This document shows, one piece after another, positions 15,131 through 64,000 of a DNA stretch of 64,000 nucleotides. The number at the start of each line of letters is the position of its first letter. Within the stretch, counting starts at the first letter, position 1. The notes below the pieces were generated by a model. It was not told the DNA's origin and ran no database searches. It worked only from the letters and a program-made list of their open reading frames with translations. The position numbers and the translations under genes were made by a program. The stretch is from Pocillopora verrucosa (lineage: Eukaryota > Cnidaria > Anthozoa > Scleractinia > Pocilloporidae), in the NCBI RefSeq assembly GCF_036669915.1, contig NC_089315.1, positions 16,266,003 through 16,330,002 on the forward strand, given 5' to 3'.

Positions 15131-15639
15131 CGACGCTCTGCAACAACTGAGTGCAAAAATAAAATGATTAGATATGTAAAGAGAGATCTTCGTACAAAGA
15201 AACACAAGACACAGTTGTGCTAAAAAGTGTCGATTCAGGTATGTGAATTTCTTATATGTGATTAATAGAGTTAACTACTTAGAGTTAGGTCACGATCTCC
15301 GCCAACGTGAATCCAAAATTCACTCAAGCAATTATACTCAGGAAAGACTGTAAATGAACCAGACTTACTACTCAGCTATCGAAACCCGGCTGACGATGAG
15401 AAGTGATGATGAACCATGTTTGCGCTGACTCGCCTCTCCTCGCTTGGTTTCACGGAGTCGCTCCTTTCCACCAAACTGCAATCAAGCAAAGAAACAACGT
15501 TTGTTACAACCCTGCATGTTTATTAGTACCATAACCAGCTGGGATTATGGATATCAATGTTTTCTTCTTTATTGACATGTCGTAGTTTCAAAGCTAAAAC
15601 TGAGCATATTTTGCGAACGAACAACTCATAGAATTAGAG

Positions 15640-16075
15640 AGATTGTAAGTTTTGAGTTCGGTGAAGAAATAGAGAAAGATCCGCGCTCGGATGCTCTAAC
15701 ACTGAGCCTCACAGACTACGGTGAGCGCGGAATCCGAAGGTCTGAGGTTCGATTCCTCATGGGGACTCAGAAGTGTTTCTTTTTCCGACGCTCGTGACAA
15801 GAAGAAAAACATCTTTCTCTATTTCTTTACCGAGCTCAAAACTTACCACATCTCTTATTCCAATAACAAACATGACGCCATCGACGTTGCTAATCCTAGC
15901 AGTATGCAGGACGCGTGTCATATGAACTTTGTGATAGACTTCGCTAACCGTAGAATCTCTTTGGCTCGTTGGTAGAGTATCGGAGCGCGGAATCCGAAGG
16001 TCTGAAGTTCGCTTCCTCTTGAGGACTCAGAAATTTTCTTTTTCCCACGCTCGTGACAAGAGGAAAAACATTTTT
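15640..16075 (+). mobile_element. Rearranged two-unit tRNA-like SINE array
   Basis: The string GAGCGCGGAATCCGAAGGTC occurs at 15723 and 15983, a 260-bp period. Each lies in a tRNA-like head and is followed by a body with CTCGTGACAAG. Directly upstream (15640-15710) is an inverted fragment of the same element, so the left end is rearranged: the reversed A-box half abuts a plus-strand B-box half at about 15720. A full head of this family occurs at 62090-62157 on the minus strand. That copy folds as a near-cloverleaf, but with an eight-base anticodon loop, so it is not a normal tRNA gene. Confidence 0.7.
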
Positions 16076-16177
16076 CTCGAAAAACTCCTATTTTCACAAC
16101 AATTTAGTCGAAGTCGGACAGAGAAGGGACACGATTATTTTCTTTTGTGTTGTGCTTATTTTTAAACTGGCACTTAC

Positions 16178-19900: not shown

Positions 19901-21403
19901 TGTGGAGTGAGATTTTTCTCCTTGATGGAAAACATCAAGCAATTTTTGAAGCACGAATCTTAAACTAATATATTGGGGCTACCATCCGAACAATATTCGC
20001 TCGAAATTGTGTGAAATGACTGGTGAGACACCTGAAAGCCAGACGCTATTTGTTTTACTCCTTGAGAGAGAAAGGATCGGTCATAATGCGGAATGCGTTA
20101 ATCAATCACTGTTACCATGGCTACAGCCCATCTTTGAATGAAATCGTGCCAAATGGATCTAGACTTCAAAACCTAGCAACTTCCATTACCATTATTATTG
20201 ATATCCAATGATCGAGGGAGAATAAGCTGTGAAAAAAATTTAACTGCTAAGACTCCATAAGTTTTTTTTAAACTGGTAAAATTTATTTTTTAAAACTTCG
20301 TTCACTTCAATCACTCTGACGAAGGGCTAACTAGACTTTGGATCAAAACCTAGCAACTTCCATTACCATTATTATTGATATCCAATGATCGAGGGAGAAT
20401 AAGCTGTGAAAAAAATTTAACTACTAAGACTCCATAAGTTTTTTTTAAACTGGTAAAATTTATTTTTTAAAACTTCGTTCACTTCAATCGCTCTGACGAA
20501 GGGCTAACGCTCGAAACGTCAGCTTTTTTACCCTTTACGGTGGCTAATTTACGTTTTCAACCCAGTTGTTAACACTAAATTACCTGCTATACTCTCCCAC
20601 CGACGCAGCAACACAGTTTCTTTAGAAACTTACCCCTTTATTCTTTTCAAATTTTGTTTTGTTTAAAAGCTTGTAACTGAATGTGAAGATTTTCCTCTAT
20701 CGAAGAGCGTACCGAGCCAAAAAAAAATAGGAAAAAACACTTCAGAAATGTTTAGGCGATTTTAGCTGACCACGCAGCATGGGATATAAACCGTGCGAGA
20801 TATGACTAATAATCAGGGCTGTCTTAAATTTGCCCCAAGCAGTTTTTTTTCTTACATGAAAAAAGCGAAAGCATATATTAGTTGGTATTGAGTGTGATTT
20901 TATTTAATTTCCCATGATATTTCTTAAAGAGATACATTTCCATTCCGAGGCAATCTTGTTGGTGGGAGCTCTCCACCACTGCTTTTACGAACTTGTAAAC
21001 GGAGATCTTTCCAGGGGGACTTTTGTTCATTTTAACCTTTTTGTTGGGAATAATTACCGTTTACCAACGCCTAACGCAGTTTGATTTGTCAAAATGCAAC
21101 GTACGTGGAGAATTCGTATACACTAGGATGACGAACGGATTAAATCTCCAAGCGGACACCGAACAGTTTTAATAACAGGTTTACAATGTCCTACAATTAG
21201 TTTTAGGATTAATTCAATCAAGGTCTAACAAAGAAACGTTAACCAAAGAGCAAATGTGATGCTTTCGAAATTATTACTTACCTTGCAAATAATTTCTGTC
21301 TCACTCTCTCTGCTGAGCGTGCGTTGTCTTCAGCCAAAAAAGAACGACAGTACCCATAGGCGATACATGCAATGAAAACCAAAGTCAGTACGAGTTTTCT
21401 CAT
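16995..21403 (-). CDS. Small secreted peptide precursor, unrecognised family
   Basis: Exon 1 is 21403-21282 (40 codons plus two bases) and the proposed exon 2 is 17070-16995 (one base plus 24 codons and TAA). The joint would be in phase and gives a 65-residue product. It starts MRKLVLTLVFIACIAYGYC, a clear signal peptide with likely cleavage after residue 17-19. The remainder is short, basic and without cysteine, and ends DRDYAKRPQMLLN. Exon 1 has a good GTAAGT donor and exon 2 a TTTTAG acceptor. A TATAAA box lies upstream. Related decayed copies at 16178-16800 support a real gene family. The 4.2-kb intron and the choice of exon 2 are inferences; another exon 2 could exist. I do not recognise the product: a secreted peptide or peptide hormone precursor is possible. 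Confidence 0.45.
17500..20165. other. No gene seen (probable intron)
   Basis: Would be intron sequence of the small secreted-peptide gene if its exon pairing is right. No recognisable domain or repeat was found. Confidence 0.4.
20166..20522 (+). repeat. 177-bp tandem duplication, retroelement-like end
   Basis: A unit starting TCAAAACCTAGCAACTTCC occurs at 20166 and again at 20343, nearly identical over about 170 bp. Only the second copy continues into the hairpin-forming end at 20493-20522 and then into a further block to about 20640. I associate that downstream block with the 3' ends of cnidarian retroelements, possibly Penelope-like, which often carry partial tandem copies. The element identity is an inference. 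Confidence 0.7.
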
Positions 21404-46844: not shown

Positions 46845-49800
46845 TCACATTTCCATGGCTTCTCCTGTTACTCTGGTCTCTGTCACTTCCATCACAATGG
46901 GTTTTACATCTTTAGTTAGAACAGCTGTGGGGATGTGATAAAAAATGAATTTGTCAGATTGTGTTTGACAGCAGAAACAATAGTAAGCCACAGACAGACT
47001 GGCAACTTTGAACTTGGAAAAAACTTTCCTCTAAATTCTCAATGATCCCTTTTGTACGATGAATTGTGCATATCATTATGGTGCTTTGCAATATTAATAG
47101 AAATTAGGTGTAAAAAGATGTACATTTTGTAAGCTGCTATTGACAAAGTGGTTGAGGTTCTTTCATGTTTTTTCCTTTTTTTTTTAGATCAACAAACTTG
47201 AAAAGAATTCCATTGGTCTCTTAAAAATTTTACATGGATGGGAACATGAAAGAAGAAAATTTGCACAGTCAACTATTAACTTTCATTCAAATAATCAAGC
47301 ATACAGTTAATTAAGAACCTGCAAGGGCTAAGCTTGATCTTTTTCTGTGACTTTAATTTACTTTAGTGGGTCTATAGGAATAGTTCTTTATAGCAAAGTG
47401 TTACCAGTCAAACAATTTTTTTGTTGTTGTTGCTTTTGATGTTCAGTGGTTCACACTTGCAACAAACCTGTAGTGCCTCTCTTGTAGGAGTACTTTCCTT
47501 GTCTGATGCCCTTTTCATTGGCCACATCATAAGGCCTGAGGTATTGTGTTCCTTCTTTGGTTATAACACATAGATCAACATTACTGCCAGATCCCTAAGG
47601 AGCAGATCACAGCCAGAAAACCAGTTACACCTAATAAAATAATTGCTGCACAAGGTATGAAAACAAAAATATGGCCTCTCAAGAATTGCAAGGTTCATTT
47701 TTATCATCAAGGCAAAAATATACTCACCAAATCATTGAATATTCCTGCAGCAATTGCATCACGAACAAGTTGTTTAGCATCCTCAAGCTAAAAAAAAAAA
47801 CAAAACAAAACAAAACTATAAATCCAGACATAAATAGTAAAGCCCAAATAAGTGCAACCACTCTCACAATGACAATGTTAACCATGATCATGTGAAAGTC
47901 AGTGTAAATTACATAAAGTTTTAATTAATTTAAAGTGATTACCTCCATATCAGGCTTGTATCGTGACTCAAATACAGACATGGCAGCCAAGGAACCAGAA
48001 CCTTAAATTTAAATAAACACTGAAATGTTACTACCGGTAAGACATTTATCAGAACCACTTTTCATAACCCTTGACATAAGTGATGACTTCCAGTCATGAT
48101 ATCAAGAAGCTGGTCACTGTCAATGTAAACAGTGCTTTGCAGGACTACATGCTTTTAATGAGATGACAGCAACTTATATTCAGCTTTTACTCCAGTTCAA
48201 ACCACTAACTGAACTAATGCCTGGCCTGTACATGTGCACATTACACATGAACAAAACCACTTCAGTGACTTTCTTTACTTATGTGATGAGATATGAGCAT
48301 CTAACTGATGTTTACTTACCCATTGTGACATATGGAAGTTTATCAGTACTTCCATGAGGGTAGACAGTATGAAGTGTAGGGCCATTTAAGTCTACACCAC
48401 CAAGCACAAGTGCAGCACTGATGTACCCTTGATATCTGTAGAATAAAGAACAGCATGGACTAAGTGATGTCAATTATCAAAGAAATAAGTACAAGGAGAA
48501 ATGTCCTATAAATTATAAAAAAATACTTTTATGGACATGCATCATGAGTAAGAATTGCATTTTTTTAAATCTATCTCTAGAGATTAAATACCTGAACAGC
48601 AGCTGTTTCAACATACGTAACGCAGTAACAATCCTGGCCTGTAAAGGAAATTAATTTCAAACACTGAGCTATCTCATTAAATCAGCCAAGGTTTAGACTC
48701 TCCTTCCAAAATCAGCAAAACCTTTTGCATTAAGTGTTATCTTTCAAGGAACTCTTACTTTGTGCCACTTCAGTAAAATATCAAGTTTACAAATCATAGT
48801 TCTGATCAAGGAGAAGTATTTGTTAGCTCAATTGGTAGAGCGCTGCACCGGTATCGCAGAGGTCATGGGTTCAAATCCCGTACGGGCCTGAAATTTTTTT
48901 CAGGTCCTACTTACAACTACTAGTTTCAGTAGTGTTCTTAGCTGCGAGGATCTTCTAATTTCAACTTTCCACCGCAGTGCAAATATGTGAATTTTCATAT
49001 ATCTAAATCTTCATTCACTCGGATGTTTATTTGTACCCAATTCATTGACCAGCTCCCAGTTGGCTTGTTAGCTCAATTGGTAGAGCGCTGCACCGGTATC
49101 GCAGAGGTCATGGGTTCAAATCCCGTACAGGCCTGAAATTTTTTTCAGGTCCTACTTACAACTACTAGTTTCAGTAGTGTTCATAGCTGCGAGGATCTTC
49201 TAATTTCATCTTTCCACCGCAGTGCAAATATGTGAATTTTCATATATCTAAATCTTCATTCACTCGGATGTTTATTTGTACCCAATTCATTGACCAGCTC
49301 CCAGTTGGCTTGTTAGCTCAATTGGTAGAGCGCTGCACCGGTATCGCAGAGGTCATGGGTTCAAATCCCGTACAGGCCTGAAATTTTTTTTCAGGTCCTA
49401 CTTACAACTACTAGTTTCAGTAGTGTTTTTAGCTGCGAGGATCTTCTAATTTCATCTTTCCACTGCAGTGCAAATATGTGAATTTTCAAGGAGAAGTATT
49501 GTTATCTTCCCTAAAATGTGAGATGTGAATCATATCTGAGCAAATCTGTATTACATCACTAGGCTCATTGTCATTCATATAATTGGCAAAGGAGAATCCA
49601 GTTGTTCAAAGGGCAGATAATGCTATCCTACAGATAAATTGCTATTCAGCAGATAAGTATTAAGGAAAAGTACTGCGCTATCCACTGGATAGAGATTCAT
49701 CCAGTGGAATTACGGTCAACTCGCCGACGGACCAACTCGCCGACGCCAACTCGCCGACGTATAAAATCGAGTAGAGACATCAGCGAGTTGGTCCTCAATC

Positions 49801-52172
49801 CAATACAACTTATTAGAAGTTAAACATACAGAAAAGTAAACGATATTTAGTAAAAAAACACTGGTGAACATTGGTGAATATCTAACAGAAGCTTAAACAT
49901 TGGTGAACATCACCAAAGACTATAACAGGTTAAGATGCGAACGAGTTATTGTGCGACAACAACACCGTAAAGACTCATCATGTCAATCGCTCAGATTTTT
50001 TGACAAAAACTTGGCTTTCTAGACGAGATCTTTAGTAAAAAGCATTTCTTTTTATTTGCAACAAAGTTTATAAGGATCTCAAGGCGAATAAAGCGAAGTA
50101 AACATCACCAATGACTCACACAACTCATTGGCGTCTACAGCCAATTTTGTTCATTGGCGATGTTAACGTCGCTTTATTCACCTTGAGATCCTTATAAACT
50201 TTGTTGCAATAATTGTTTTTTACTAAAGATCTTGTCTAGAAAGCCAAGTTTTCGTTAAAAAATCTGAGCGATTGACATGATGAGTCTTTACGGTGTTGTT
50301 GTCGCACAATAACTCGTTCGCGTCTTAAGCTGTTATAGTCATTGGTGATGTTCACCAATGTTCAGCAATGTTTAAGCTTCTGTTAGATGTTCACCAACGT
50401 TCACCAGTGTTTTTTTTTACTAAATATCGTTTACTTTTCTGTATGTTTAACTTCTAATAAGTTGTATTGGATTGACGACCAACTCGCCGACGTCTCTACT
50501 CGATTTTATATGTCGGCGAGTTGGCGTTGGCGAGTTGGCGTCGGCGAGTTGGGCTGTCGGCGAGTCGACTGGTTACCATCCAGTGGAAAGCATTACCCAT
50601 CCTTCAAACAACCAGGGCCAGAAGTAAATAATATACACATTTACCTGTCGTCCAGTGGATAAGCTATGGAGCTGAATGTTGGAGGAGATAAGATTTGTAA
50701 CATACTCTGTATCAGCAGCAGTACCAGCCCCACAGCAGCTGAAAAAGACGAATTGGAATAAGCGATTTTTATAAACTAGGAAATAAAAGGAAAACACCAA
50801 CCACCAGGAAAAAATGCTGTTCTAATGCACACTGGTACACAAAGTTAAAAGTGTATCACTATACAATGTAACCTGACAGAGGCAAAAAAGTTGAAGTACT
50901 TACTAAATATTGGGAGCTATGTAGTGGATCTTGGAGCAGTTTTTATCTGCAACAACTGTATCCTTCAAAGTAACAAATAATAAACATGAAAAATATGAGT
51001 CAAAATCAGAATTCACTGAATGAAAAAGAGAGAGCCACAAAGAGTAGTAGGCATATACATACAGATAAAAAATGTAACTTGTTCTAAAAAGTTCTGACTA
51101 TTTTTTGACCAGAACAACAACCAATGTGAGTGGTTATTAATGTTGTACCATTTCTAAAAAAGAAAGATTTCTGAAATAGACATCTTTCAGAATGGCAGCC
51201 TCTACCATGATAATTTGAGTGCACTAAAATTTGCCCTCAAAGATATTATTTGGTACTACAACTCTACTGTTTTTCCACAAAGAGAAGTTACACGTAGCAA
51301 CATTTCTTTCCAATTCCCTCCTTGATTAAGTGTGCATTTCTTCAATAAAAGAATACAATGGTAAAAATAAATATTACCTCTGCGGTTAGGGATTCTTTTT
51401 AAAAATGGTACGTTATGCGTAGAGGAAGCCTTACTTCATATTTCATTAGACCTCAATTACAGTTTCATTGGTGACCAGTTCCCAATAAACACAAATCACA
51501 AAATAATCCAAAAATGTGTTTTAAAAAGTTGTGCAGTTCTTCAATAAAAGAATTCAATGGTGAAAAATAAGTATTACCTTTGCGACTAGCGTTTCTTTTT
51601 GAAAAAGTATAATGTTATGCGTAAAGGAAGCCTTATTTCTTATTTGATTAGACCTCAAAAATGCGTTATAAAAAGCTAATACTAACCTCAGTAGCTCTTG
51701 TATCAGCACCTAATAAGACGCCATCCTACAAAGGTAACAATTAGCAGATTTAGACCATCCCTTCTTTCACTAAAACGCATTACTGGTTTTACATGTGCTC
51801 ACGACAAAACGTTATAAAGAGTTGGATAGACCACAGATCTCGAAGAAGAACCAATTCCGAAGACATTTGTTCCTTTAAACCCGCTAATCACGAACAAATC
51901 GATCACTGATCAGGGAGAAATACCCAATAACAGGAAGATCAAATCTAACCTTGAATACAATTCCCGCAATAGTTGTACCAGTTTTTCTTGCTGTGGGCAG
52001 CTTAGCGCCCATTTTCTCCAGTATGGCATTTCTACGATGGGATCAAAAAGTTAGAACTGAAAGAAGGTGAATAAAAGGAAATTCGACATTCTTAAAATTC
52101 AAACCTTTTGCAGTTTTCGAACGAAAATCCGCCATGGTTTTCTTGAGCAACAATTCCTCCAACAGCGGCCAT
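46845..52172 (-). CDS. PSMB7: Proteasome 20S subunit beta type-7 (beta-2)
   Basis: Eleven coding exons, all phases joining: 52172-52105, 52031-51950, 51725-51687, 50962-50904, 50738-50645, 48638-48592, 48435-48320, 48001-47943, 47787-47728, 47594-47468 and 46924-46845 (TGA). The 276-residue product matches the usual length (277 in human). The propeptide ends KTG before Thr42, the N-terminal nucleophile of the mature enzyme. Asp58 (Asp17 of the mature chain), Lys74 (Lys33) and Gly86 (Gly45) are all in register. Other landmarks are [49 protein letters not shown] and [11 protein letters not shown]. The last exon supplies the C-terminal tail [15 protein letters not shown], which in beta-2 wraps its neighbour beta-3. 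It provides the trypsin-like activity of the 20S core. The intron between 50645 and 48638 is loaded with inserted repeats. Confidence 0.96.
48817..48889 (+). tRNA. tRNA-like unit 1 (anticodon GGT), 5' stem lost
   Basis: D arm, anticodon arm and T arm are identical or nearly so to units 2 and 3. The first acceptor strand is replaced by flanking sequence (TATTTGT), which cannot pair with ACGGGCC, so this unit cannot form a full cloverleaf. It begins directly after the 15-bp direct repeat at 48806-48820. Confidence 0.4.
49062..49134 (+). tRNA. tRNA-like unit 2 (anticodon GGT)
   Basis: The 73 nt fold as a full cloverleaf: acceptor GGCTTGT with ACAGGCC (one G-T pair), D stem GCTC with GAGC, a five-base anticodon stem with one A-C mismatch, and T arm ATGGG-TTCAAAT-CCCGT. 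The anticodon position reads GGT (threonine). However base 33 is C instead of the near-universal T, no CCA is encoded, and it is part of a tandem SINE unit. Probably not a functional tRNA, though Pol III transcription is likely. Confidence 0.5.
49307..49379 (+). tRNA. tRNA-like unit 3 (anticodon GGT)
   Basis: Identical in sequence to unit 2 over the 73-nt head, with the same full acceptor stem and the same C at position 33. Confidence 0.5.
49597..50620. mobile_element. Inverted-repeat element split by the foldback insertion
   Basis: The left end CCAGTTGTTCAAAGGGCAGATAATGCT (49598 on) is the approximate reverse complement of AGCATTACCCATCCTTCAAACAACC (50588-50615). Removing the foldback element and one copy of its target repeat leaves a MITE of about 145 bp. 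Its right end lies only about 25 bp from the PSMB7 exon at 50645. Confidence 0.65.
49710..50576. mobile_element. Foldback element with arrayed CCAACTCGCCGACG tips
   Basis: A long palindrome: left arm about 49710-50113, spacer about 37 bp, right arm about 50151-50576. Matching blocks include TTTATAAGGATCTCAAGG (left) with its complement on the right, and the motif CAATCCAATACAAC. Each tip carries several copies of CAACTCGCCGACG in tandem. The element is flanked by a 12-bp direct repeat, CATCCAGTGGAA, at 49698-49709 and 50577-50588. It has no coding capacity, so it would depend on an enzyme made elsewhere. Confidence 0.85.
51340..51690. repeat. Two-copy tandem duplication in PSMB7 intron
   Basis: The block starting TTCAATAAAAGAA occurs at 51341 and 51540 (period 199 bp). 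Shared TTATGCGTA, GAGGAAGCC or AAGGAAGCC and TTAGACCTCAA landmarks run to about 51660, just before the exon at 51687. Confidence 0.75.
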
Positions 52173-61200: not shown

Positions 61201-64000
61201 AAAGATGATGAATGATGTGGCGAGGTGAGAATGCTGGAAATAAAAAGTAAAACTATAAACAACGAAGTTTTATTGTTTTGTTTTGTTTTTTTTCGTTGTT
61301 GTTGTTGTTTTGTTTTGTTTATATCCTTTAAGTAGACGGGTTTTTTAGAAGGGAAGTTTACTTGGAATGTGAGCACAAATGATGTCCTTCTCCTTTGATC
61401 TAAGATCAAGAGTCTACCCTGTCCACCCCTGTGCTTTTGACTAACAATTAGCAGGCATCTATCCCTCCCAAAGCATCACTGGGTCTTGGCTAGGCATTAA
61501 TCCCCTTTTAGTATGTACTCGTATGTGGCCATGTGAAAACTTTGCAAGAGCAGGCACTAAACAATCTATGGTTTTCTTTCACACCAGCAAGAAGAGAGAA
61601 ATGCGACCTGTGACTAAAGCTCTAATAAGAGACATTGTGTTTACTAAAGGTAAAATTAAGATTAAATAGCTTATATTTAGCGTTATAAATCCTGAAGAAG
61701 CCTGGCATAGGAATAGCAGGAATTGTGCGATAAACATAGCGACAGTGCCTCATGAGAAACATTCATTAATTTTATAGCGCTTCACTGCTTTACTATGATT
61801 CAGAAATGCCTTATCTTAGAATCTCCTCATCAATTACTTTTTTTTTGCCCCACTTTTCAGAAAGTAATATGTATTCAGCCAACATGGTGAGGCAGTACAG
61901 TTTCCTGAACCAGTTGATTTCTGACCTTGAAAATGATGCATCCAAGGTTTGTGAGCTTGTCATGTATGCTTGTAACATGGTGAGAATAACCCTGCTAATA
62001 TAAAATATATATCGCTGTTAAAGAAAGATGTTTTTTCGTCTTGTCACGAGCGCGGGACAAAGAAACATTTCTGAGTCCCCACGAGGAATCGAGCCTCAGA
62101 CCTTCGGATTCCGCGCTCCGATGCTCTACCACTGAGCCACAGAGACTCCATGGTGAGCGAGGTCTATTACGAAGTTCATATGACACGCGTCCTGCATACT
62201 GCTAGGATCAGCAATGTCGATAGCGTAATGTTTGTAGATAGAAATGAGAGAGATGGTAAATTTTGAGCTCGGTAAAGAAATAAAGAAAGATGTTCTTTCG
62301 CCTTGTCACGAGCGCGGTACAAGCGTTGTCCATATAGCTGTTGTGCGACACATAAACTTAATCCATTTTGGCATATGGCTGAATGTAGGGCCTTCGTCTC
62401 GGTACAAAGGTCATGAAGGCGGGCGAGGATGGGGGATCTAAGATCCTATTTCACAACCCAAAATTTTCTTCCGAAATTCAAATTCTCGGTCCAAAGTGTG
62501 TCATAAGGCCTATTCCCAGGCCTAATATATAGATTTAGCCATTCATATGGAAAATTGTCTAAACTTTTTTTTTTTTTTTTTCAGGTCATAGAAAAAGTTG
62601 AAAAGCTTCGATCTCTTTTGACGCAGCCTTCAAACTTGCGGGTTCACGTGGCAGCCGATGTGAACAGATTACCGGATAATCCGCATGTGCCATGGAAAAC
62701 AAACCTGTTACTTGATACCTCTGCTGTAATACCAAAGAAGTAAAGCTTTTTTTTATATAGTCGCCGATGTTAAATTTTCATGTTACATTATGAATGTTTA
62801 TAGCTTTAGCTACGTCGAAATCTTTTCCTTAATAATTTTCCTTCTTTTTGTTTTGTTACAGCATCCCGCCAGTTAAGAGATCCAGTGCTTTCCTTGCCGA
62901 TAGTCCTGGCCATGGTAAAATAGTCGGTGTTGGAGCAGTGGAGTCGTCGTTTCTTTACCAAACCACTAAGTGTATTGACAGTTTTGATCATCCAGACCTC
63001 CCCGCAATCATGGTGTTCCTGGAATGTTTGACCACTTTAGAGGTAAATCAGCGTGTAATTTAGGAGTATGGAGTTGAGAAAAACTTGAAAAAATTGAATT
63101 TCGTGGGAAAAGTTATGCAAGATTGCTCTGGTTTTACTTCACTACGCTTAGTAATTGGTCAGGGCAGCATATAAAACCTTTTACATCCATCCGGTTTAAA
63201 ACAAAAGCCAAACGCGACCTACTTACCCAGATTTTCCCGCGCTTCAGACCATTTAGCTCTCATTGGTTCCTTGTGTTGTTTTCCTTTGTTCTGATTGGCT
63301 AGTTGTGCTTACTTTAGCTTACACGCTCAATCGAAAAGCGCTCTGTCTAATAAAAAACAATATGAAGGGTTCACTCAAAGACAAACTATCAAAAGTACAG
63401 ATTTTTTGAGAAATATTCAACTACAGAATTTTTCATGACTTTAATGAATCCTGGTTACGGATTTTTTTTAATTTTCGCACAACTTGGACTCGGTTATTTT
63501 CTTTCTGTGGAAAAAGTTATGCAGCATGATGGAAAGCCTTTTACAAAAAATAAAGTTAAAGGTTAGGTTAAGAAAATGTCCTAAACCTTGAGCGGATCAA
63601 GTATGCTTTTAATTTTAATTGTAAAGAATGTTTATACCTTTCCTCTTCTAGGGACCAATATGGCGCCAAGTTCGTGGACTGGGATTGTCCTATGGATACG
63701 GGTAGGTAATCTCGCTGCTCTGATAAAAAGTTTGAAGATTCAAACGATAAGAACGAGATTTTGTCAAAATATATTTTAGTGTTATTCCTGTTGGGAACGG
63801 GTCAACTTGAGTGGCTTGGATAAATATTAAGCTATCATAAGGCGCAAGTGGAAAACTCCTCATCGTGCTGCTGCAGAGACAGGGATCAAAAATAATAATC
63901 CCTTTTTTATTATCTCAACTCGACCCATGTTCTTCATGGAATTTACGATTGAGTGTCGAAAGTAATTCGGGTTTGCTTTAGTTTGGCTATAGTTTGCTTT
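52284..64000 (+). CDS. M16 metalloprotease, C05D11.1/YOL098C-like (3' end outside)
   Basis: Seventeen phase-consistent exons: 52284-52425, 52962-53044, 54167-54325, 54994-55149, 55753-55806, 56026-56148, 57684-58316, 58669-58812, 59465-59659, 60045-60147, 60834-60964, 61106-61224, 61588-61649, 61861-61946, 62585-62739, 62862-63042 and 63652-63701. At least 858 residues are seen; relatives are about 1000. The inverted zinc motif HTLEH is at 59-63 (His59, Glu62 and His63), within DDDGLPHTLEHLVFMGSEKY. A likely third ligand is Glu152 in GVVYCEMQGRE. The early part GTNAWTSTDHTAYT is typical of the M16C group. The chain has a large central segment from one 211-codon exon. The compartment is unknown; no clear targeting signal starts at MAENFEQISSF. 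No human orthologue of this subtype comes to mind. The gene carries many intronic repeats. Confidence 0.9.
52602..52664. repeat. Near-perfect palindrome, 31-bp arms
   Basis: AGGACATCAATTATTTAAA...CTCATAAA and its complement face each other across a single base, with one mismatch. It lies in the first intron of the M16 gene, about 180 bp after the first donor. Confidence 0.95.
54437..54639. mobile_element. piggyBac-like MITE with TTAA target
   Basis: Terminal inverted repeats CCCTTTAACTCCC and GGGAGTTAAAGGG frame 203 bp. TTAA lies directly outside both ends (54433-54436 and 54640-54643). TTAA duplication and CCC-starting ends are the hallmark of piggyBac-type elements. Confidence 0.8.
54645..54745 (-). 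mobile_element. SINE fragment, family S2, with tRNA-like head
   Basis: Reversed, it reads ACAATGGCCCTACTGGATAG, CTCTGGGTCCGAAGTCCTGG and GTTAATGTGTTGTGTTCTT. The last block matches the start of the copy at 44265-44580. The head has A-box and B-box-like spacing. Confidence 0.5.
57036..57118 (+). pseudogene. Decayed duplicate of M16 exon 9
   Basis: This intronic stretch matches the 3' part of exon 9 (59573-59659) with scattered changes: GAGTGAAACAAAGAAGTTTC here, GAGTGAAGCAAAGAAGTTTC there; then GTTCCAGCTGAACGACGTAT against GTTCCAGCTGGACCACGTAT. In the exon 9 frame it has stops (for example after AEIP and after DVSTV), so it cannot be a working exon. It lies upstream of exon 7, so the copy is out of order. 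Confidence 0.85.
57162..57365. mobile_element. piggyBac-like MITE, degraded copy
   Basis: Parallels 54437-54639 over its length: CCTTTAACTCCCAAGATC at the left and GAGAGTTAAAGGG at the right. The flanking TTAA is no longer visible on both sides. It lies in the sixth intron of the M16 gene. Confidence 0.75.
58375..58560 (-). mobile_element. MITE-like dispersed repeat, family B
   Basis: GGAGAATTTGTTTAGCAATC, ATTCTCGTGACCTTGGTGTG and AGGAGAAATTAGATGCTAG follow the same order as at 30346-30600. Ends are approximate. Confidence 0.55.
59876..59992. repeat. Degenerate (ACGA)n-type repeat
   Basis: Imperfect four-base repeats (GAACGAACGAACG and similar) interspersed with ACGAGCC and ACGAGAC blocks, in the ninth intron of the M16 gene. 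Confidence 0.85.
61262..61322. repeat. T-rich simple repeat
   Basis: GTTTT and GTT repeats within the twelfth intron of the M16 gene. Confidence 0.8.
62010..62160 (-). mobile_element. tRNA-like SINE, best copy of the GCGCGGAATCCGAAGG family
   Basis: Reversed, AGTCTCTGTGGCTCAGTGGT, then AGAGCATCGGAGCGCGGAAT and CCGAAGGTCTGAGGCTCGATT form a cloverleaf-like head. Acceptor AGTCTCT pairs with GGGGACT, and T stem GAGG with CCTC. The anticodon loop has eight bases. The body carries CGCTCGTGACAAG, and a partial second unit (62245-62325) with the same body follows. Confidence 0.7.
62245..62325 (-). mobile_element. Partial second unit of the same SINE
   Basis: GAGCTCGGTAAAGAAATAAAG and CTTGTCACGAGCGCGG repeat the body of the neighbouring unit; no head is attached, because the tRNA part is missing. 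Confidence 0.6.

Follow-up and report, generated by a model that had tools for sequence, protein, structure and literature searches.

Diverging tandem arrays of a tRNA-headed retroposon in the coral Pocillopora verrucosa suggest reverse transcription of small RNA circles

Introduction

In L1 elements, twin priming (5' inversion) gives an insert of two diverging arms, the whole of it enclosed by target duplications. Multimeric arrangements of short elements are described elsewhere, most closely for retrozymes: the excerpted account of those in the coral Acropora millepora gives tandem units of 220-240 bp, with variants of ~225 and 245 bp (Cervera and de la Pena 2020, PMC7229834), and assigns to metazoan non-LTR retrozymes a low GC content, copies ranging from dimers to large multimers and target duplications of >4 bp when present. 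The same text proposes that retrozymes integrate as tandem cDNA made from circular RNA, with help from LINE or Penelope-like elements (PMC7229834). In the portions of the literature that bear on other comparable systems, the Dip SINE forms multimers of up to eight (PMC10702118), Helenus elements are short, non-autonomous LTR elements with tRNA-like sequence and 4-5 bp target duplications (PMC10886601), and coral CMITEs are piggyBac-like DNA elements found in tandem arrays, with TTAA duplications and terminal inverted repeats (PMC2872659).

Here we analyze a tandem array of tRNA-headed units from Pocillopora verrucosa together with its relatives across the host genome, and we argue that this array is probably one insertion of a non-autonomous retroposon that was templated by a small circular RNA, the tRNA-like head included. 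Among the matches listed by literature searches, which covered tandem or multimeric SINEs, SINEs of corals, retrozymes, circles formed by SINEs, and twin priming combined with circles, none describes such a system, judged by title and the start of the abstract, and strings of the unit sequence were not found in literature text.

Results

The window is a stretch of 64,000 nucleotides (NC_089315.1, positions 16,266,003 to 16,330,002), and its array comprises 2.73 plus-strand units, for which Tandem Repeats Finder reports a 245-bp period, 2.7 copies and 98% matches at 48820-49488. A sequence-only reading of this DNA had called the units perfectly periodic, which is not exactly so, as unit 3 has one additional T. 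It had also described the array as beginning and ending in partial units, and this is the case: unit 1 (48820..49061) begins at unit position 4, the 5' stop of this copy, and lacks most of the first acceptor strand; unit 2 (49062..49306) is a full 245-bp unit, with unit position 1 as the first base of its tRNA-like head; and unit 3 (49307..49488) runs to unit position 181 (..GAATTTTCA), where this copy has its outer 3' end. A sequence word search located the two copies of a 15-bp target-site duplication, TCAAGGAGAAGTATT, to which no strand applies, at 48806..48820 on the left and 49486..49500 on the right, overlapping the unit by 1 nt and 3 nt, respectively. This word is absent from the rest of the window with up to 2 mismatches allowed, and the duplication bounds the whole array, as had been proposed. 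The longest word common to both array ends is 15 bp, a length to be compared with a maximum of 12 in random 668-bp control spans from other parts of the window, of which 19,442 were left from 20,000 once array-adjacent ones had been skipped. A 67-bp linker, running from unit position 181 to the next head, is present between units and absent from the outer ends, and none of its 12-mers recurs elsewhere in the window.

The array is intronic to a PSMB7-like gene of the opposite strand, with exon matches on either side of it (48635-48318 and 50956-50648, with a human protein sequence as query), and the best match of the unit to the window outside the array covers only 19 bp (E 0.15). Shortly downstream lies a large inverted repeat (49712-50565, 88%) that has ~14-bp tandem sub-repeats at both ends and is flanked on both sides by CATCCAGTGGAA, at 49698 and 50577. 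Farther away in the window, a 177-bp stretch is duplicated in tandem at 20166-20508 (1.9 copies, 98%) with no flanking repeat of >4 bp, and a minus-strand U6 snRNA-like sequence (2071-2175, 82.7 bits) matches poorly in its 5' stem.

Each unit carries a plus-strand tRNA-like head, scoring 59.7 bits against the Rfam tRNA model in units 2 (49062..49134) and 3 (49307..49379) and 42.2 bits in unit 1, where it is truncated (48822..48883). The head of unit 2 has the anticodon GGT, an A box, TAGCTCAATTGG, that matches expectation and a B box, GGTTCAAATCC, that deviates once from the consensus used, GGTTCGANTCC, and in this it resembles the two-box head of a tRNA-derived SINE. The full cloverleaf pairing earlier attributed to units 2 and 3 is present in the acceptor stem (7/7 pairs) and is interrupted by one broken pair in the anticodon stem. 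A run of seven to eight T directly after a tRNA 3' end is an expected Pol III stop. The units have such a run right behind the tRNA 3' end (49139..49145, plus strand, in unit 2), with 7, 7 and 8 T in units 1-3, and it falls in a predicted hairpin that takes up the acceptor 3' strand in its 5' arm. Full-length Pol III transcription of the unit appears doubtful, since a T7-T8 run would be expected to end it. The tRNA head has fewer array-fixed changes (3/18), a difference that is not significant (p 0.06 and 0.09), and the proposed continuing selection for Pol III activity is no more than a possibility. We also considered whether the window array might itself copy a Pol III transcript, with ends at position 4, beside the tRNA start, and at a T4 run (176-179), and we rejected this candidate because the 5' stops in the genome are scattered; among the 13 single-direction arrays, that of the window is the only one to start ≤3 nt from the tRNA start.

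Self-cleaving ribozymes were sought at several scales. Neither the window nor six fetched array loci contain an Rfam ribozyme at gathering score, and none appeared at E up to 5 in 48700-51200; the hammerhead core CTGANGA is absent from both strands of the unit; and a genome-wide hammerhead-family search gave 0 matches among 73 scored of 48,635 candidates, with controls that were likewise without a match, and is therefore uninformative. We rejected membership among hammerhead retrozymes, having found neither an Rfam ribozyme nor the CTGANGA core in these sequences. Parts of the units had 0 matches in prokaryote and viral collections, and a phage search matched the head only, at eight places of which seven carry a tRNA-gene annotation.

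Across the host genome (353.4 Mb, 52 contigs), a 37-base head pattern with ≤2 mismatches has 1555 matches and its reversed control 0. We mapped 40 arrays, namely every scored candidate of 2054 first-look candidates, as clustered here and including the window array, with segments <25 bp ignored and a 76%-identical fragment of L021 dropped; this set, which favors long copies, spans 2.56 to 16.64 units. A positional sample, built on the 30 exact-head places that come first along one contig, yielded 22 loci, or 20 after merging two segmental-duplicate pairs (L053/L054 and L070/L074, ~96-97% alike over at least 1.7 kb), in which the array thus moved as part of a larger repeat. Its copies measure 0.66-3.73 units and show no fixed monomer; one locus is common to both sets (L031 and L067). 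Furthermore, 100 listed exact heads fall into 74 clusters, 57 of which have a single head. The window trimer had been viewed as an exception to a monomer rule, a view these counts do not support: because copies span many lengths without a fixed monomer, the trimer is one point in a continuum. Unit-length copies with a defined 3' tail, as in SINEs, are likewise not what we find, as 58 of 67 outer 3' ends are internal, at ~147, ~181 and ~197.

An exact direct repeat of 11-15 bp surrounds the whole array in 25 of the 40 mapped arrays, consistent with SINE-like target-site duplication, and no exact repeat of at least 11 bp is found in the other 15; the start of the duplication is blurred by a 0-9 bp overlap with the unit. 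As a control, left and right flanks taken from different arrays never share >10 bp (0/1560 pairs at 11-15 bp). In the positional sample, repeats of at least 10 bp occur at 10/20 loci, several of them up to 19 bp off the mapped ends, and the corresponding control is less clean (two pairs at 10 and two at 13 among 458 mismatched pairs); the plus arm of L055 was omitted there, so that its target repeat was improperly tested. Arrays whose duplication is clear have 46 priming ends, in which the three bases preceding the duplication are A in 33, 36 and 28, and the next two show a weaker CA (C in 17, A in 23). Because two-armed arrays are counted from both sides, the mirror image TG|TTT represents the same data.

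Joining the two flanks of an array allowed a search for sites without the insert, and an uninterrupted match spanned the joint in 5 of 37 joined flanks tested; we examined four of these (L010, L019, L042, L036) and left out the fifth, L038, a partial self-hit. In all four, the target sequence occurs once and the insert is absent, with some mismatches in older copies, the sites being paralogous repeat copies rather than orthologous loci. The site of L010 (8.4 units) is uninterrupted in L037 (96%); that of L019 (11.3 units) is found in the window at 20603-20482 (92%), in L048 (93%) and in L026 (88%, with one additional base); that of L042 is found in the window at 54643-54432 (89%) and 57365-57158 (87%); and for L036 the best match, L030, is merely 79% alike. 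The joined-flank search for spanning matches found no empty site for the window array. Arrays of up to 16.6 units are bounded by one pair of target repeats, and this, together with the empty sites of four other arrays, speaks for a multimer that was inserted entire and lends support to an early guess of rolling-circle-like copying.

Two arms of opposite strand make up 27 of the 40 mapped arrays, always in the order minus then plus (27/27), with the 5' sides meeting inside; the outer ends are consequently 3' ends, and the diverging arms lie inside one target duplication, as in twin priming. The positional sample agrees, with 14/20 loci two-armed, as does the positional list, in which 10/10 mixed-strand clusters run minus then plus (three of them loci of the positional sample). 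The 67 outer 3' ends concentrate in an A147 class (136-156, 30 ends) and a C197 class (190-206, 24 ends), with 4 ends in a B181 class (177-187) and 9 elsewhere. A147 is paired with C197 in 17/27 two-armed arrays and both ends belong to the same class in 1/27; in the positional sample, with C197 taken as 188-206, these counts are 8/14 and 0/14, with L048, whose ends lie at 135 and 148, one base short of a same-class pair. The window array is a single-arm copy ending at the rarer 181 site. Its unit 2 contains the two common sites, A147 at 49195..49208 (ending in ATCTTCTAATTTCA), the commonest outer 3' end genome-wide, and C197 at 49244..49258 (ending in ATATCTAAATCTTCA), the second, both on the plus strand and neither used by this copy. 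Inner, or 5', ends are scattered along the unit with some excess at 71-80 (10/67), where reverse transcriptase would meet a folded tRNA head.

Units within an array are close to clonal. Their divergence is 0.0058 within an arm, 0.0057 between the arms of one array and 0.0131 between arrays, and the within-array rate, a measure of substitutions alone with unit positions 74-90, 144-157, 194-206 and 231 masked, is 0 in 11/40 arrays, with a median of 0.0014. The less clonal arrays are L043, which has the maximum (0.0163), and L040 (0.0118), whereas 0 of 2270 cells differ across the 11.3 units of L019. Several arrays have private variants fixed over both arms (e.g., 124A>T in L019 and 121C>T in L018), and some are periodic: in L030 six sites alternate with period 2 over four units, in L028 a single site does so over six, and L038 shows period 3 at two of four shared sites, the other two being off-period. 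Such clonal and periodic patterns are expected if a circle of one, two or three units was copied repeatedly, and the periodic ones could alternatively stem from later block duplication of DNA.

A single nucleotide departs from this uniformity. Unit position 231, a G in the window (49292, plus strand), is a G/T site that varies in otherwise near-identical arrays elsewhere: it is not G in 19 of 192 units (18 substitutions and one missing base) from 7 of the 40 arrays, the remaining 33 having G only. In L010, L019, L024 and L028, picked for showing variation, T stands at 231 in 13/39 units, versus 4 differences in 8509 other unmasked cells. Position 231 is perhaps one special nucleotide that is repeatedly misread, maybe a ligation point, an explanation that leaves the lack of variation in most arrays unaccounted for. 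Position 205 varies as often (7 arrays each), which we put down to CpG decay.

The window also contains two copies of a second tRNA-headed family with a 262-bp unit: element B (62019..62322, minus strand), of 1.16 units with ends that overlap by 42 bp (93%), and element C (15628..16078, mixed strands), in which a broken inverted piece (15628-15730, minus) adjoins ~1.35 units (15723-16078, plus). A window search with the first-family unit found no match to element B. The 3' acceptor strand of the tRNA-like head is also predicted, in both families, to pair downstream, rivaling the cloverleaf (49139-49145 in the window array, ~62083-62048 in element B); element C has a weak form of this hairpin. 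Folded as a circle, the first-family unit is stabler than 200/200 shuffles (z -4.95), and 34/200 shuffles are as stable as the second-family unit (z -1.04). Genome-wide, the second family has 2151 first-look candidates, and the 40 that were scored include seven mixed clusters of minus-plus order and one, L085, of plus-minus order; nine loci, chosen mostly for being two-armed (eight mixed clusters plus one), were fetched. Excluding the convergent L085, the 17 outer ends of eight loci and elements B and C lie at unit positions 84-91 (9 ends), 39-43 (5) or elsewhere (3), giving preferred regions at ~40 and ~88 that are ~48 nt apart. One end of each class occurs in L079, L082 and L084, and both ends of L080 are of the same class. 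Most target duplications in this family have decayed too far to be recognized; the longest word shared was 10 (L079).

Discussion

Our findings suggest a mechanism in which an RNA circle of one 245-nt unit, sometimes perhaps of two or three, would serve as template for insertion. A retroelement endonuclease would make a staggered cut of ~12-14 bp with AAA before the stretch that becomes duplicated and hence TTT after it, and the 3' end of the target would anneal to UUCA-type motifs in the circle (~147, ~181, ~197) and prime reverse transcription, an arrangement that fits both the end positions and the target context. Reverse transcription would lap the circle a variable number of times and stop at scattered positions. 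In most copies the 3' end of the second strand would prime too, usually at another site, and the two cDNAs would be joined head to head into two diverging arms, while priming from a single end would give a single-direction array such as the one in the window (3' end 181, 5' stop 4, 2.73 units). From the anatomy of the copies we infer the RNA circle itself, the dual priming behind the arms, a LINE or Penelope-like enzyme and circularization that uses no known ribozyme.

Other routes to such arrays deserve weight. Linear multi-unit transcripts of genomic arrays might instead be inserted by target-primed reverse transcription with no circle and with twin priming of the ordinary sort, which would account for the target duplications, the diverging arms and the scattered 5' stops from source arrays that are present in the genome. 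We judge this unlikely: each linear round can only shorten a copy, and 57 of the 74 listed clusters have a single exact head, yet L019 reaches 11.3 units with no substitution outside masked columns; moreover, no single RNA 3' end emerges, as 147 (30/67) and 197 (24/67) are both common and usually paired. It seems improbable, too, that reverse transcriptase strings linear monomer RNAs together by jumping from end to end at unit position 230-232. The single-nucleotide hot spot at 231 (19/192 units, 7/40 arrays) is what a jump junction might give, but its variation consists of 18 substitutions and one missing base instead of variable added stretches, the outer 3' ends lie at internal 147 and 197 and not near 230, units are mostly clonal within an array, and L030 alternates strictly.

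Block duplication at the DNA level would suit the period-2 and period-3 patterns of L028, L030 and, in part, L038, as well as a repeated pattern in L024, and tandem SINE-derived satellites are known in reptiles, according to the excerpted source (PMC10702118). Even so, we hold out little prospect for a short insert that grew afterward by local tandem duplication or gene conversion, because the 67-bp linker of the window array exists only between units, so that duplicating an insert of positions 4-181 alone could not generate it, and because both arms of two-armed arrays are equally clonal and outer ends occupy the same regions whether copies are short or long. Gene conversion by a different array is nevertheless conceivable. 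Capture of satellite or extrachromosomal circular DNA fragments at staggered breaks would explain the circle-like permutation and the short overlaps at the ends, but it predicts neither arms that only diverge (27/27) nor two preferred outer sites nor a shared target context, and we consider it highly improbable.

Several observations count against reverse transcription of an RNA circle as well. These are the failure to find a self-cleaving ribozyme that could circularize the RNA; the T7-T8 run; the 15/40 arrays without a repeat of at least 11 bp; the 9/67 outer ends outside the three classes; the non-clonal arrays L043 and L040; in the second family, the convergent L085, the same-class ends of L080 and the lack of clear duplications; and the low circular folding energy, a property of the first-family unit that the second-family unit does not share. 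With these in mind, we offer a broader proposal tentatively, at somewhat less than even confidence: two tRNA-headed families, between which no similarity was detected, may both spread as ribozyme-free RNA circles with two dedicated priming sites ~50 nt apart, both cut strands priming on the same circle and rolling-circle reverse transcription yielding diverging multimers, and position 231 of the first family may be an error-prone spot resulting from RNA ligation or modification.

If circle-templated insertion is correct, a hammerhead ribozyme is not needed for retrotransposition through circular RNA, a fixed monomer is not required for a tRNA-headed element to move, and some SINE or satellite annotation in such genomes may be circle-derived. 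In the excerpted retrozyme account, tandem integration from circular RNA is a proposal drawn from RNA evidence (PMC7229834); in the present family, the process seems to have left its record in the genomic copies, whose units are mostly clonal, whose lengths are arbitrary and whose arms diverge, with two preferred end sites and with empty sites that show the target once.

Among known systems, the first family resembles tRNA-derived SINEs in being short and non-coding, with a tRNA-like head containing A and B boxes and with target duplications, but it is not a usual SINE because it has no unit-length copy with a fixed tail: in place of a fixed monomer and a 3' tail at the unit end, there are circularly permuted copies and diverging arms. 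Its apparent spread as multi-unit strings, often primed from both cut DNA ends, is unexpected for ordinary SINE elements. Unlike L1 twin priming, it forms arms in 27/40 mapped copies, from two preferred start sites ~50 nt apart on a repeating template. Helenus, as far as its excerpted description goes, likewise combines a tRNA-like promoter with a short non-autonomous element, but it has LTRs and, in animals, 4 bp target duplications, as opposed to 11-15 bp in the 25 of 40 arrays here with a clear repeat (PMC10886601). CMITEs share with it short elements in tandem arrays of coral genomes and differ, on the evidence of the text cited, in their TTAA duplications and terminal inverted repeats (PMC2872659). 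The likeness is greatest to retrozymes, from which the family is set apart by its tRNA-like head and by its two-armed copies with two end sites, a feature not mentioned for retrozymes in the excerpted text of PMC7229834, and among which it cannot be counted because no hammerhead was found (Rfam, core motif). It nonetheless has their short, low-GC tandem units (245 bp, GC 0.416), their range of multimers (0.66-16.6 units) and target duplications of >4 bp, along with, probably, a route via circular RNA like the one proposed there (PMC7229834), and since retrozymes were proposed to integrate by tandem copying of an RNA circle, the first family would work like a retrozyme.
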